Assembly (NCBI GenBank): GCA_016787895.1
Contig: JAEUTN010000002.1
Location: 1-64,000 of the forward strand
Direction of reading: 5' to 3'
Length of the DNA: 64,000 nucleotides
Origin: Bacteroidia bacterium
GTDB taxonomy: Bacteria > Bacteroidota > Bacteroidia > B-17B0 > Aurantibacillaceae
Under the pieces are notes generated by a model that saw only the letters and a program-made list of their open reading frames with translations, did not search any database and had not been told where the DNA came from. Made by a program: the position numbers and the translations under genes. This document shows positions 20,210 through 25,172 of the stretch, in pieces (positions within the stretch are counted from its first letter, which is position 1; the number at the start of each line of letters is the position of its first letter).

Positions 20210-20352
20210 GGTTTTTGCTTAAAAGCCGGGGTTTAAGTGGGGGCCATAGTATGGCAATTGTTGCCTTTAAAACTATATTAAAGCGCTGATTAGCAGCTTG
20301 AAAAGTTTATTTTCCTGTTCATATTTCTCCTTAGGTTTTAATTTCGAAATCT

Positions 20353-20360
20353 TATATTTG
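20353..20360 (+). promoter_or_regulatory. -7 box of the YfiR-like operon
   Basis: TATATTTG is an exact TAnnTTTG match. About 18 bases upstream is TTAG rather than TTG. The predicted start near 20365 lies about 14 bases before the proposed CTG start at 20379 and about 150 bases before the first in-frame ATG, which favours the longer protein. Confidence 0.6.
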
Positions 20361-20378
20361 TAAGATTGATTCATTTTT

Positions 20379-20909
20379 CTGAATAGGGCATTTACATATT
20401 CTCTTGTTCTCTTTTGTCTGATATCGTTCCGGTTTCAGCAACCATCGAATTACGATACCAATTCCAAATTAAAGGCGGTTTACCTCTACAACTTCACCAA
20501 GTACTTTGAGTGGCCCGAAAGCATGAAAAATGAGAAATTTATCATCTACGTAGTTGGAAAGAACGATAATCTGGTGAGCGAACTGAAAAACCTGGCCGGT
20601 AAAAAGAAAGTCGCCAATCAGGACATAGAGGTCAGAAATTCTGCCAATTACGACGCGTCCATACTTCCCAATATCATTTACTTTGGACCTGACATAATAA
20701 AACCCATAAGTGCGGCTGCAGCAAAATACAAAAACAAAGGTGCCTTGGTGGTGGCCGAAACAGCAGGAGCCTGCAAATCGGGTGCAAGCATCAATTTTGT
20801 TACCCTTGAAAGCAAATTAAAATTTGAGTACAATAAATCCGCGGCTGTAAAAGCGGGATTAAAAACAAACGATGACATAAAGGCCATTGCCGTATCCAAT
20901 ATAGAATAA
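20379..20909 (+). CDS. YfiR-like (DUF4154) secreted protein with a non-ATG start
   Basis: From the first in-frame ATG (20523) only 128 residues would be made. The frame stays open upstream to a stop at 20367, and there it encodes LKAVYLYNFTKYFEWPES, the conserved N-terminus of the DUF4154/YfiR family, preceded by a signal peptide (NRAFTYSLVLFCLISFRFQQ). That stretch has no in-frame ATG, GTG or TTG. CTG at 20379 gives a 176-residue preprotein of normal family length; ATT 20373 is an alternative. YfiR of Pseudomonas is a periplasmic repressor of a cyclase; here the partner may be the HAMP-PP2C phosphatase two genes on. Other conserved parts are IIYVVGKND, and near the end GACKSGASINFV and SKLKFEYNKSAA. 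First gene of a four-gene operon. Confidence 0.8.
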   Translation: MNRAFTYSLVLFCLISFRFQQPSNYDTNSKLKAVYLYNFTKYFEWPESMKNEKFIIYVVGKNDNLVSELKNLAGKKKVANQDIEVRNSANYDASILPNIIYFGPDIIKPISAAAAKYKNKGALVVAETAGACKSGASINFVTLESKLKFEYNKSAAVKAGLKTNDDIKAIAVSNIE

Positions 20910-20913
20910 ACCA

Positions 20914-21846
20914 TTGATCGCTAAGCGCAACATATTCAAATTTCTGCTGTTCGGCTTCCTGCTGCTGAGCGGAGCCAGGCTTGGTGCTCAGATTGAGTCT
21001 TTGGCAAGAGCTCAAAATTTGCTGAATACCAAACAACCGGATAAAATTGATCAGGCTGTGTTTACCATCGATTCCGTTATTAAACACAAAGACACCAAAG
21101 GCGATTTTGTGAGTTGGACCACCCGCGCCGCGATATATTACGAAGTTTACAAAAGGGCGGATAAATACCGCTTGAACTCTCCAATACGCGACACCATCAT
21201 TTCTTCTATACACCATTCTGATAATCTTAAACCGGATTCAACAACAAGGGTGTACAATCAAAAACTTCTGATTACCCTGGCTCAGGGGTATTATAACATG
21301 AACATTCGCTTTTTGCAGGACTCCGGTAATGCAGAAAAGAGTTTGATGGCATACAACCGCTATAAATCCATGTACAAGGAGATTTTCCCCAAAACGGATT
21401 TCAAAGCAAAAGACATAGAGTATTACCTGGCAGTATCAACAGTATACAACGACAAGTATGCAAAAGACAGCAGCGAAAAAACCATACTGGTTTCGAAAAA
21501 AGCTTACGAAAAGGTTCTGGAAATTGATCCGGACAACCGATCAGCCAATCTTGGAATAGGACTTTTGAATTATAACGAAGCCACAGTATTAATCAAGCAG
21601 CTGGAGTATGAGGTAGAGCTGGATCAGATTGAAGTGGTTCAGGACAATGTAGTAAAACTGGCCAAACAAAGTGAGCAGTACATTCTTAAGGTATACAATG
21701 CCAACAAAAGCGACGCTAAAGCGGTAGAAGCCTTGTACTATGTTTACAGAATGCTGATGGACAAGGTGAAGTTTGAGGACTTTAAGAAAAAATGCTCAGA
21801 ACTGGGCATAACAGTGAATGATGAAACGGCCTCTCAACAGAAATAA
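20914..21846 (+). CDS. Secreted TPR-like protein in the YfiR/PP2C operon
   Basis: The 310-residue protein has a signal peptide (KRNIFKFLLFGFLLLSGARL, cleavage near LGAQ) and then helical repeats resembling tetratricopeptides: YEKVLEIDPDNRSANLGIGL at about residues 200-220 is the clearest. Other repeats are degenerate. It likely acts in the periplasm as a protein-binding scaffold. The start is TTG at 20914, four bases after the YfiR-like stop; no ATG fits before the signal peptide. The stop is directly followed by the ATG of the phosphatase gene. No enzyme motif is seen. Confidence 0.78.
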   Translation: MIAKRNIFKFLLFGFLLLSGARLGAQIESLARAQNLLNTKQPDKIDQAVFTIDSVIKHKDTKGDFVSWTTRAAIYYEVYKRADKYRLNSPIRDTIISSIHHSDNLKPDSTTRVYNQKLLITLAQGYYNMNIRFLQDSGNAEKSLMAYNRYKSMYKEIFPKTDFKAKDIEYYLAVSTVYNDKYAKDSSEKTILVSKKAYEKVLEIDPDNRSANLGIGLLNYNEATVLIKQLEYEVELDQIEVVQDNVVKLAKQSEQYILKVYNANKSDAKAVEALYYVYRMLMDKVKFEDFKKKCSELGITVNDETASQQK

Positions 21847-23628
21847 ATGAACTACAGGTTCACCATAGGAAGAAGAATAGGACTGGGGTTTGCCATACTC
21901 GTGTCATTAACCGTGGTGGCGTTTACGCTTACAATTTTTACCATCATTGAAAGCAAAAACAAAACCGAAACCATGGTTGGGCAGGTTACGCCCAGTGTTA
22001 CAGAGCTCAAAGAACTGAACCTGATGCTGCAGCGTTCACACACGAACATTTCAAAGTGGGTGTACAATAAAAGCATGAACGACATGCAGTTCAGGGATGA
22101 TTTAAATAAAATCATCAGCGAGGAATTTCCACAAAAACGAAAATTGCTGGTAGATTATTCAAAGTATTGGACCGATTCCGAAAAGGAGCAACTTCAGGTC
22201 ATATTTCTTAAAATCGATTCCCTGTTTTTGGTTTACAAAAACAACATCATGGAGCCGCTCAATAGTCTTGATGCCTATAATGATGACGGGATAATTTTTT
22301 TGGCAGTGAACGATTATGAAGAGTCGGAAACGTATATCAAAACAATTTACTCCAAACTCAGGGAACTGATTGAACTTAAAAAACAATTCGCGGAAAATGT
22401 AAAGCTCGAAATGTTTGAGTCACTCGATTTTCTGAAACAATCGGTGCAATTTTTGAGTATACTGTTGATGTTGGGCGGAGTGATCATTGGAGTAATGACC
22501 ACACGATCCATTACCCGGCCGGTACAGGTTCTGAAAAAAATGCTGCTCTCCATGGGCTTGGGAATTTTGCCTGAAGAACGGGTTAGCGCGCGTAATGACG
22601 AAATCGGAGAAATGGGGAACGCCTTGAACGATTTGATTCAATCCATGCACCATACCACCGATTTTGCAAAAGAAACAGGTGCCGGAAACTTTAATGCCTC
22701 TTATACCCCGTTAAGTAAGGACGACACTCTGGGACACGCATTACTAAAGATGAGGGACGATCTGGCTGAGAACGAGCGGGTGCTCGAACAAAAAGTGATT
22801 GAGCGCACCGAAGAAGTAGTTCGTCAGAAATCGGAAATTGAACACAAAAATGTAGAACTTGAAATCCTCTATAAACAAGTTACTGATAGCATACATTACG
22901 CGAAACGTATCCAGGACGCAATACTTCCAACAACCAACAAAATCAAAAATCTGTTGCCGGATTCCTTTATACTGTTTAAACCAAAAGACATAGTAAGCGG
23001 TGATTTTTACTGGATTGAACAAAAGGGGGATTTGGTGTATTTCGCCGCCATCGATTGTACAGGCCACGGTGTTCCGGGTGCCTTTATGAGTTTGGTAGGA
23101 TACAACATTTTAAAGGATATTCTTAAAAATACCAGCGCTTCAAAACCTTCTGAAATACTCGATCAGTTAAGGGACGGTGTGGTAAGCGCGCTGCTCACCG
23201 ACGAAACCGGTAAACAAGCCAAGGATGGCATGGACATGACCCTTTGCGCCATCAATTATAAAACCATGATGTTGCAGTACGCTGCCGCTTTCAATCCGCT
23301 GTACCTTATTCGTAAGGGCGAATTAATTCTGCATCCTGCCAATAAGTTTCCAATCGGTTCTTATGTAGGTGAAAAAACAGGATTCGATAACCACGAGATA
23401 CAACTGGAGAAAGGAGACCAGATTTTTATATGCAGTGACGGTTACGCAGATCAATTTGGTGGCCCAACCGGTAAAAAGTTCATGGTAGGCAATTTCAGGA
23501 AATTGTTGCTCAAAATTTCAGAACTCAACTCCCAGGTTCAAAAAGAAGAACTGAATAAAACCCTGGTCTCCTGGCAGGGCGAACAAGAACAGGTTGACGA
23601 TGTTCTTGTGATTGGTGTAAAAGTCTGA
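21847..23628 (+). CDS. Membrane HAMP-PP2C (SpoIIE-type) serine phosphatase
   Basis: The 593-residue protein is a membrane sensor with a phosphatase output. Transmembrane helix 1 is at about 11-34, a helical periplasmic sensor at 35-197 (four-helix-bundle-like), and helix 2 at 198-219. A HAMP domain follows at 220-272 (RSITRPVQVL, NDEIGEMGNALNDL), then a coiled coil at about 300-350 and a PP2C/SpoIIE domain at 355-593. Metal-binding acidic residues appear in VSGDFYW, AIDCTGHGVPGAFMS, DGMDMTL, CSDGYADQFGG and the C-terminal DDVLVIGVKV. Such proteins dephosphorylate anti-sigma-antagonist (STAS) partners; none is in the window. The tight operon suggests that the YfiR-like and TPR proteins modulate its periplasmic sensor. 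Confidence 0.92.
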   Translation: MNYRFTIGRRIGLGFAILVSLTVVAFTLTIFTIIESKNKTETMVGQVTPSVTELKELNLMLQRSHTNISKWVYNKSMNDMQFRDDLNKIISEEFPQKRKLLVDYSKYWTDSEKEQLQVIFLKIDSLFLVYKNNIMEPLNSLDAYNDDGIIFLAVNDYEESETYIKTIYSKLRELIELKKQFAENVKLEMFESLDFLKQSVQFLSILLMLGGVIIGVMTTRSITRPVQVLKKMLLSMGLGILPEERVSARNDEIGEMGNALNDLIQSMHHTTDFAKETGAGNFNASYTPLSKDDTLGHALLKMRDDLAENERVLEQKVIERTEEVVRQKSEIEHKNVELEILYKQVTDSIHYAKRIQDAILPTTNKIKNLLPDSFILFKPKDIVSGDFYWIEQKGDLVYFAAIDCTGHGVPGAFMSLVGYNILKDILKNTSASKPSEILDQLRDGVVSALLTDETGKQAKDGMDMTLCAINYKTMMLQYAAAFNPLYLIRKGELILHPANKFPIGSYVGEKTGFDNHEIQLEKGDQIFICSDGYADQFGGPTGKKFMVGNFRKLLLKISELNSQVQKEELNKTLVSWQGEQEQVDDVLVIGVKV

Positions 23629-25172
23629 TGGGCTTCGGAAGTCGCATATTCCGTTTTTTTCTGGCATTTTTTTTTGTTGCACAAGCACCTTCAGGCATAT
23701 ATGGCCAATCAGGTACTGAACGTGTTACAGCTGACACCGCAGCCATTGGACTTTCAGCAGTCAGTATCAAAACCCTGAACGCCCTTTCCCTTCGTTTTGA
23801 ATACCCTATTCAGGATTATATTTTTGATACGATTCATCAATTGTTGTTTGTGTCGGGCAAAGAAAAGGACGAACAATCCGGCCAGTTGCTTTTGAAAGGA
23901 TTTTTTGGAGCGATCGACAACAACGAAAAACCAAAATGGATCGTGGAATCTTCTTTGTTCGATTTTAACCTTGAGAACAATCTTTTGATTGTATCCAACG
24001 ACGAAAGGAGCGCCAGGTTCAATAAGCTGGCCGGATACGATGAACTCAAATACCCGGGCCGGTTGCTCACCGGCATTGAAAACACACCTTTTGCCTTGTT
24101 TTATGACAGTCAAAATAAGGAGGAAGTGCATTGCCTCGACCTGCGCACGGGTTTTGTGAAATGGAAAGCAATGGTGCCGGGGGCACAGGATTGGGTTGAT
24201 TACAAATTGCTGAATGATTCGGTTTTACTTATTGCCGCCTCAGGTGTACATGCAGTTCACGTCCGAACCGGTTTGATATGGACTGTGCCACTTCAAACGG
24301 CTTTTATTACAGCCAAAGCCTTAACCTATTCGCTGGCAAAAAACACTACCATTTTAAAAGTAAGCAAGGTGGTACATTGCACAAACGATGAAAATCAGGT
24401 TACCCAATTGGCTTCGAATATCCTTTTACACAAGGGAAAAATTGTGTTTGCTTCCAAAGAAAAGTGTCTGGCCCTGGATGAAACCGGTAAGGCGCTATGG
24501 AGCCTTGATTTGCGGAATTATCCCATTTCCAAAATGATGCTGACAGTAACTGATTCAAGCCTATTGCTGGTGAATTTTGGACTCGCCATGCACAGCAATC
24601 GTTTCGTGAATTGGGGGCGGCCCTTTATTCTGGAATTAAACCCTGAAAATGGAGCTGTTTTAAATCAATACGACCTCAGTAAGATCGAAAACATGGCTGA
24701 TTTTACACAAGCCGAAAACTCCCTGGTATTCGCGGGTAAAGATGAAATACTGAAAGTGAAACCCGGTGAGCCTGAAATAAAAACCATGCTGGCGCTCAGT
24801 CAATCGGCATACGGCAGATTTGTGGAGTTTATCAATGGCAACGAATACTATACTTTTAAAGAGGGCTATTACGTTCCATTAAATTTTATCAATGGAAATC
24901 TGATTTATTTTAAAACCGACAACAATAAAGTATATGGCATCGACGGTGATTTTATTCAGTATGAATACCACTTTACAGAATTGTTCCGTTTGGCAGGAAA
25001 ATTCGATTCAAAACCCATTTTAAGAAACGAAAAAAAAACCATCCTCATCAGCGGCAATTATGAACTGATGTATGAGCTGAATACCGCAAATCCCATGTTA
25101 ATAACGGAAAATAAACTTTATTTTTTTGAAGGCAATAAAGTTACCGTTGTTAACAGGAGAGAGCTGGAATAA
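23628..25172 (+). CDS. Secreted PQQ-like beta-propeller protein
   Basis: The 514-residue protein has a signal peptide (FRFFLAFFFVAQAPSGIYG, cleavage near residue 27). The rest repeats strands such as GFVKWKAMVPG, GLIWTVPLQ, GKALWSLDLRN and NKVYGIDGDF, the pattern of PQQ-like or quinoprotein-type propeller blades, without clear catalytic residues. I do not recognise a specific family. ATG overlaps the last base of the phosphatase stop codon (TGATG), so expression is coupled. It may be a periplasmic sensor module or structural partner of the operon. Convergent with the thioesterase gene 6 bases away. Confidence 0.75.
   Translation: MGFGSRIFRFFLAFFFVAQAPSGIYGQSGTERVTADTAAIGLSAVSIKTLNALSLRFEYPIQDYIFDTIHQLLFVSGKEKDEQSGQLLLKGFFGAIDNNEKPKWIVESSLFDFNLENNLLIVSNDERSARFNKLAGYDELKYPGRLLTGIENTPFALFYDSQNKEEVHCLDLRTGFVKWKAMVPGAQDWVDYKLLNDSVLLIAASGVHAVHVRTGLIWTVPLQTAFITAKALTYSLAKNTTILKVSKVVHCTNDENQVTQLASNILLHKGKIVFASKEKCLALDETGKALWSLDLRNYPISKMMLTVTDSSLLLVNFGLAMHSNRFVNWGRPFILELNPENGAVLNQYDLSKIENMADFTQAENSLVFAGKDEILKVKPGEPEIKTMLALSQSAYGRFVEFINGNEYYTFKEGYYVPLNFINGNLIYFKTDNNKVYGIDGDFIQYEYHFTELFRLAGKFDSKPILRNEKKTILISGNYELMYELNTANPMLITENKLYFFEGNKVTVVNRRELE

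Follow-up and report, generated by a model that had tools for sequence, protein, structure and literature searches.

A candidate envelope-sensing gene block that pairs a YfiR-like protein with a SiaA-type membrane phosphatase in an order of Bacteroidota without diguanylate cyclases

YfiR of Pseudomonas is a periplasmic repressor that holds back the production of cyclic di-GMP (c-di-GMP), as described by Malone et al. 2012 (PMC3375315). What, then, would a YfiR-like protein act on in an organism that encodes no diguanylate cyclase? This question is raised by four adjacent genes located at positions 20379-25172 of a 64,000-nucleotide stretch of Bacteroidia DNA (the window; contig C19 of the 3.6 Mb genome G000), the first of which encodes a YfiR-like protein. 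We found that this gene, a TPR gene and a gene for a 4-helix/HAMP/SpoIIE-family membrane phosphatase constitute a conserved three-gene core. On balance we favour the view that the core forms an envelope-sensing system, in which YfiR and the periplasmic TPR protein would control the SiaA-type membrane phosphatase, and the latter would act on a SiaC-type phosphoprotein.

All four open reading frames were found on the + strand, with a spacing of a 4-base gap, a 0-base gap and a 1-base overlap. Apart from the start of the first gene (see below), their coordinates agree with an earlier reading based on the letters of the DNA (hereafter the sequence-only reading), which had described four genes packed in this way. 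The yfiR-like gene (20379..20909; open frame 20370-20909) encodes a DUF4154 protein of 176 amino acids with a signal peptide. It is followed by the gene for a secreted TPR-like helical-solenoid protein of 310 amino acids (20914..21846; start codon TTG), which is the second gene of the conserved core, and by the gene for the phosphatase of 593 amino acids (21847..23628). The fourth gene (23628..25172) encodes a secreted PQQ/BamB-like beta-propeller of 514 amino acids (PQQ_2, 31.5 bits). A search of the region for known structured RNAs found none.

The first product belongs to the YfiR family according to both its profile and its predicted fold. It matched Pfam DUF4154/YfiR (PF13689) with 94.9 bits against a cut-off of 24.9, and its AlphaFold model (predicted local distance difference test score, pLDDT, 91) has the YfiR fold: each of the 15 top PDB matches obtained with Foldseek is an entry of P. 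aeruginosa YfiR, either by itself or in company of YfiB, with E values of 2e-6 to 3e-5 and TM-scores of at most 0.73 over the target length. This fold search supersedes a sequence search of the PDB, which had produced weak matches to Cps2A only. The second product gave a weak Pfam TPR match; its model (pLDDT 94) is a TPR-like helical solenoid that matched TPR entries of the PDB with low whole-chain TM-scores. The phosphatase is built from a transmembrane helix, a periplasmic 4-helix sensor (21943..22428, residues ~33-194), a second transmembrane helix, a HAMP domain (22498..22650, residues 218-268; Pfam HAMP 28.3 bits), a coiled coil and a SiaA-type PP2C catalytic domain (22960..23625, residues 372-593; Pfam SpoIIE 67.5 bits). 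The sensor is 4HB_MCP_1-like, with 26.1 bits just below the cut-off of 27, and the PP2C signature motifs SGDFYW, DCTGHGVPGAFMS, SDGYADQFGG and QVDD are kept across 10 aligned relatives.

Conservation of the block was analyzed in 70 genomes sampling 10 genera of the order, and gene neighbourhoods were taken for nearly all YfiR matches; the genomes are mostly metagenome assemblies, and the counts given here are not independent events. DUF4154/YfiR was detected in 68 of the 70 genomes. A TPR gene directly follows yfiR in 65 of the 70, and the 4-helix/HAMP/PP2C gene comes next in 63 of these 65, the other two cases being contig ends. That this gene order is kept across 10 genera indicates that the juxtaposition is not due to chance. 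In addition, the flanking genes (encoding MltG-like, ABC ATPase, thioesterase and prenyl synthase proteins) are common only to part of the genus, so that the three-gene block, kept while its flanks change, reflects more than local synteny. The YfiR-TPR-PP2C triple was also found in Flavobacteriales, Salibacteraceae and Cryomorpha ignava in a scan of named genomes, with PP2C identities down to 38%, and one further triple was present in a phylum-wide sample (L186). The propeller gene, found in 22 of 57 core loci, all of them in genus g1 and none in other genera, was rejected as a core part and is regarded as a genus-restricted accessory. Thus, the four-gene system proposed by the sequence-only reading holds for YfiR, TPR and PP2C and fails for the propeller, and the dispersal of these genes across Bacteroidota that would have spoken against it was not what we found.

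Diguanylate cyclases were then considered as the target of YfiR. No match to the GGDEF domain (PF00990) was obtained in the window's genome, and GGDEF was absent from 69 of the 70 genomes of the order, the single match being a 118-amino-acid frame with an internal stop. Since YfiR is present in 68 of these genomes, a diguanylate cyclase is not available there as its target, and this candidate was rejected.

Several observations tie YfiR to a SpoIIE-type phosphatase instead. The window's genome has a second YfiR, which forms the N-terminal part of a 591-amino-acid protein and is followed there by one transmembrane helix, then a coiled coil and finally a SpoIIE domain. Such YfiR-transmembrane-PP2C fusions are present in 14 of the fetched loci, three of which carry two YfiR domains. 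In those of L111, L112 and L115, two tandem YfiR domains precede the PP2C domain in proteins of 834-859 amino acids. The fusion of the window's genome, at L119 (contig C4 of G000), adjoins another SpoIIE protein, of 1174 amino acids, whose N-terminal region is propeller-like, and the two are paired in the same way in several relatives (L107, L110 and L114).

The sensor also tracks YfiR. A profile hidden Markov model (HMM) was built for the periplasmic sensor of the operon, and 80 named PP2C loci were searched with it. YfiR was present at 23 loci encoding a sensor-bearing PP2C and missing from three, two of which lie at contig ends, and it was found at none of the 54 loci with a sensor-less PP2C (Fisher p 4e-17, without correction for relatedness). 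Among the PP2C loci of the window's genome, the 4-helix sensor occurs only in the window operon. The evolutionary distances of YfiR and the sensor correlate as well, with a partial r of 0.77 given the catalytic domain. In agreement with the sequence-only reading, which had suggested that YfiR may be tied to a SpoIIE-type phosphatase and not to a diguanylate cyclase, conserved linkage, lack of GGDEF, fusions and sensor tracking all point the same way. A search of one library of open-access papers retrieved no paper that links YfiR with SpoIIE or describes YfiR signalling in Bacteroidetes.

A second arrangement, in which yfiR lies beside the gene for a TonB-dependent receptor, involves the same sensor family, borne here by the product of a divergent gene. 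The output is a PP2C domain in nine such loci and a histidine kinase in five, the sensor being significant in four of the latter. At L126, L280, L301 and L302 the 4-helix sensor is joined to a histidine kinase beside the YfiR-TonB receptor pair, the kinase of L126 being of the HisKA_2 type. The presence of one sensor with either PP2C or histidine kinase at related loci indicates that the output has been swapped. Elsewhere in the order and the phylum, YfiR is paired with CHASE8-HAMP histidine kinases or fused to histidine kinases.

These results are consistent with the following mechanism. YfiR, and probably the TPR protein, would dock on the 4-helix domain that the phosphatase places in the periplasm; it is linkage and fusion that argue for such a physical contact between YfiR and the sensor. 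An envelope or nutrient signal would alter this contact, and the change would be relayed via the second transmembrane helix, the HAMP domain and the coiled coil until it reaches the dimer of PP2C domains. This dimer may then dephosphorylate a phosphoprotein of the SiaC type, for which the kinase would be of the SiaB type. By likeness to YfiR/YfiN, the control exerted by YfiR would be inhibitory. Coiled-coil control of PP2C dimers has been documented for RsbU, and the coiled coil has been proposed to be a general, exchangeable input that can serve histidine kinases and diguanylate cyclases as well as phosphatases (PMC12143880), a proposal that fits the exchange of outputs seen at YfiR loci.

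The direction of control could also be the opposite one. YfiR might bind a ligand and activate the phosphatase, or serve as its co-receptor, and inhibition would then fall to the TPR protein. The 14 direct fusions lend this some weight, since an inhibitor fused to its target would always be bound unless a ligand relieved it, and so do the Rhodothermus substrate-binding proteins that Foldseek ranks after the YfiR entries and the TonB receptors that YfiR adjoins in other modules. However, repression by a fused domain can still be conditional, and YfiR is a repressor in Pseudomonas (PMC3375315). We therefore consider activation by YfiR rather unlikely and retain inhibition as the provisional direction.

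Which protein does the phosphatase act on? A profile search identified a single solved relative, the SiaA PP2C domain (6k4e, E 7e-52), and SiaA is also the best NCBIfam model, with 198.5 bits (E 2e-58) over the HAMP, coiled-coil and PP2C regions and an equivalog cut-off of 700 that is not reached. In P. aeruginosa, the phosphorylation state of SiaC at T68, which lies in the peptide LLYLNTSSIK, is governed by SiaA together with the kinase SiaB (PMC7647112). SiaC was detected in 69 of the 70 genomes of the order, and the window's genome encodes six SiaC proteins. Its core SiaC, the best conserved of them (Pfam SiaC 145.9 bits against 24.5; 6kko, E 3e-20), carries EYFNTSSSK, and the NTSS phosphosite motif was invariant in 30 of 30 loci. 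A SiaB gene lies next to core siaC in 29 of these 30 loci; the SiaB-family kinase beside the core SiaC scored 173.7 bits against the SiaB_fam_kinase cut-off of 85. Exactly one SiaC is present in 11 genomes, all of which have the operon. The surroundings of the core SiaB-SiaC pair were seen at L141:4813-5756 and in loci L356-L385; in L141 and L356 the pair lies just upstream of class I aldolase-like and accD-like genes, which in L380 are preceded by SiaC alone.

The sequence-only reading had envisaged an anti-sigma or STAS target, and a phosphatase acting on a classical anti-sigma-factor antagonist would find its partners in this genome. Its only single-domain STAS protein has 115 amino acids and the NSSGL phosphosite motif, and its one RsbW-like kinase, of 135 amino acids (L133:7877-8284, contig C3 of G000), is encoded beside a 1175-amino-acid membrane protein; a lack of STAS proteins, which would have told against that reading, was therefore not observed. 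Orthologs of the STAS protein and of the kinase are present in 61 and 70 of the 70 genomes of the order, respectively. However, no single-domain STAS protein was found in the four genomes of genus g9, three of which keep the operon, nor in G059, which keeps it likewise. Moreover, 14 of the 15 PP2Cs of the window's genome scored 184-389 bits against an HMM of the operon's catalytic domain, and the exception (42.7 bits) is a GAF-PP2C on contig C17 that resembles RssB and Rv1364c and shares its contig with the STAS protein. In G049, which belongs to genus g9, the match to the RsbW-like kinase is broken by a stop. Because the phosphatase is SiaA-like, SiaC is present in 69 of 70 genomes and STAS is missing from g9 despite the operon, SiaC is better supported than STAS and is most likely the substrate, as judged from these sequence comparisons. 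We thus revise the predicted target to SiaC and set STAS/RsbW back as a possible though unlikely main target.

Other results weigh against parts of the system as proposed. YfiR of Pseudomonas binds a CHASE8/PAS-like domain of its partner, and a Pfam scan of the window phosphatase gave no CHASE8 match, its sensor being 4HB_MCP_1-like instead. At L221, a sensor-PP2C gene has neither yfiR nor a TPR gene within 4 kb. The distances of the TPR protein and of the HAMP and coiled-coil region correlate almost as well as those of YfiR, and since these regions behave alike, the distance correlation supports a unit and not a specific YfiR contact. Genes for SiaC and SiaB are neither inside the operon nor adjoining it, and the 13 other SiaA-type phosphatases of the genome could use SiaB/SiaC. 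That these envelope genes share no more than their transcription, without direct interaction of their products, a view favoured by the coming and going of the propeller with the operon and by the fact that we infer the contact between YfiR and the phosphatase, is nevertheless very improbable in the light of the natural fusions and of the association of sensor and YfiR in several different gene arrangements.

A further feature of the block is the start of its first gene. The sequence-only reading had placed it at 20330, which is barred by an in-frame TGA at 20367-20369; the frame opens only past this codon and contains no ATG, GTG or TTG until 20523. Alignment to relatives places the start at the CTG at 20379, a column that corresponds to TTG starts in other genera. 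CTG is found at this column in 26 of 33 sequences of genus g1, and a 27th (L281) additionally has an upstream GTG; 21 of the CTG sequences, that of the window among them, lack an upstream in-frame ATG, GTG or TTG. In other genera, TTG is the best start codon for yfiR in 25 of 32 sequences. At these loci, 60 of 61 phosphatase genes have an ATG start, and most of the TPR genes begin with ATG or GTG. The conserved non-AUG start was seen in the window (20353-20381) and in loci L047-L106. The sequence TAnnTTTG, the known -7 promoter consensus of Bacteroidota, is present no more than 55 nt ahead of the aligned start column in 64 of 65 loci, and 16-25 nt upstream of the start in the CTG group. In the window, TATATTTG (20353..20360, + strand) matches it and ends 18 nt before the yfiR start. 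It is thus a candidate yfiR promoter element, and its position would imply a very short leader. The start of the first gene would thus be a weak one, possibly kept for low or regulated expression.

The results bear on YfiR and on SiaC. YfiR, whose experimentally established role is the regulation of c-di-GMP, has been retained by almost all sampled members of an order without diguanylate cyclases, and the YfiR module gains a PP2C output class and a 4-helix partner sensor, tied to it by operon structure and natural fusion. For SiaB/SiaC in Bacteroidota an input can be predicted, which makes a role of SiaC without a diguanylate cyclase testable, and Cryomorpha ignava offers a cultured organism with the three-gene core. 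More tentatively, and with somewhat less confidence than we place in the system itself, YfiR and the SiaA-type phosphatase may form one envelope-to-cytoplasm pathway, working without enzymes that make c-di-GMP, that feeds a SiaB/SiaC hub common to ~14 SiaA-type phosphatases; if so, SiaC would have some major output that is not a diguanylate cyclase.

Compared with YfiBNR of P. aeruginosa, the system shares the YfiR fold, the periplasmic site and a HAMP-containing inner-membrane partner encoded alongside. Its partner differs from YfiN in having a PP2C instead of a GGDEF output, and a 4-helix instead of a PAS-like/CHASE8 sensor, CHASE8 occurring in other YfiR systems of the order. The window operon has a TPR protein and no YfiB-type OmpA/Pal lipoprotein, and the YfiR of this order, whose organisms lack diguanylate cyclases, can be fused to the phosphatase. 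According to Malone et al. 2012, the YfiR-YfiN core is modular, and its outputs are of the GGDEF/EAL, histidine kinase, HPT and MCP kinds; the available part of that paper (PMC3375315) mentions neither a PP2C output nor a 4-helix partner, nor any direct fusion of YfiR.

With SiaABCD of P. aeruginosa, the system has in common a phosphatase with two transmembrane helices, HAMP and PP2C, as in SiaA, and relatives of SiaB and SiaC in the genome that keep the NTSS phosphosite motif. However, the SiaA and SiaC relatives of the window's genome score below the equivalog cut-offs, the window phosphatase is encoded apart from SiaB/SiaC in a genome without the diguanylate cyclase SiaD, and its periplasmic input would come through YfiR and the TPR protein. 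RsbU/RsbV/RsbW resembles it in that a SpoIIE-family PP2C is driven via a coiled-coil linker (PMC12143880) and in that STAS and RsbW-like proteins are present in the genome, but the window catalytic domain does not group with the genome's RsbU/RssB-like PP2C, and STAS is not kept wherever the phosphatase is, being absent in g9. Finally, in the Bacteroidota systems composed of YfiR, a TonB receptor and a CHASE8 histidine kinase, YfiR is likewise the periplasmic input to a HAMP membrane protein, whereas the output is a histidine kinase, the sensor is CHASE8 and a TonB-dependent receptor takes part. The genetic tie of YfiR to a membrane phosphatase in Bacteroidota that lack diguanylate cyclases suggests that one and the same envelope sensor now serves a different switch inside the cell.

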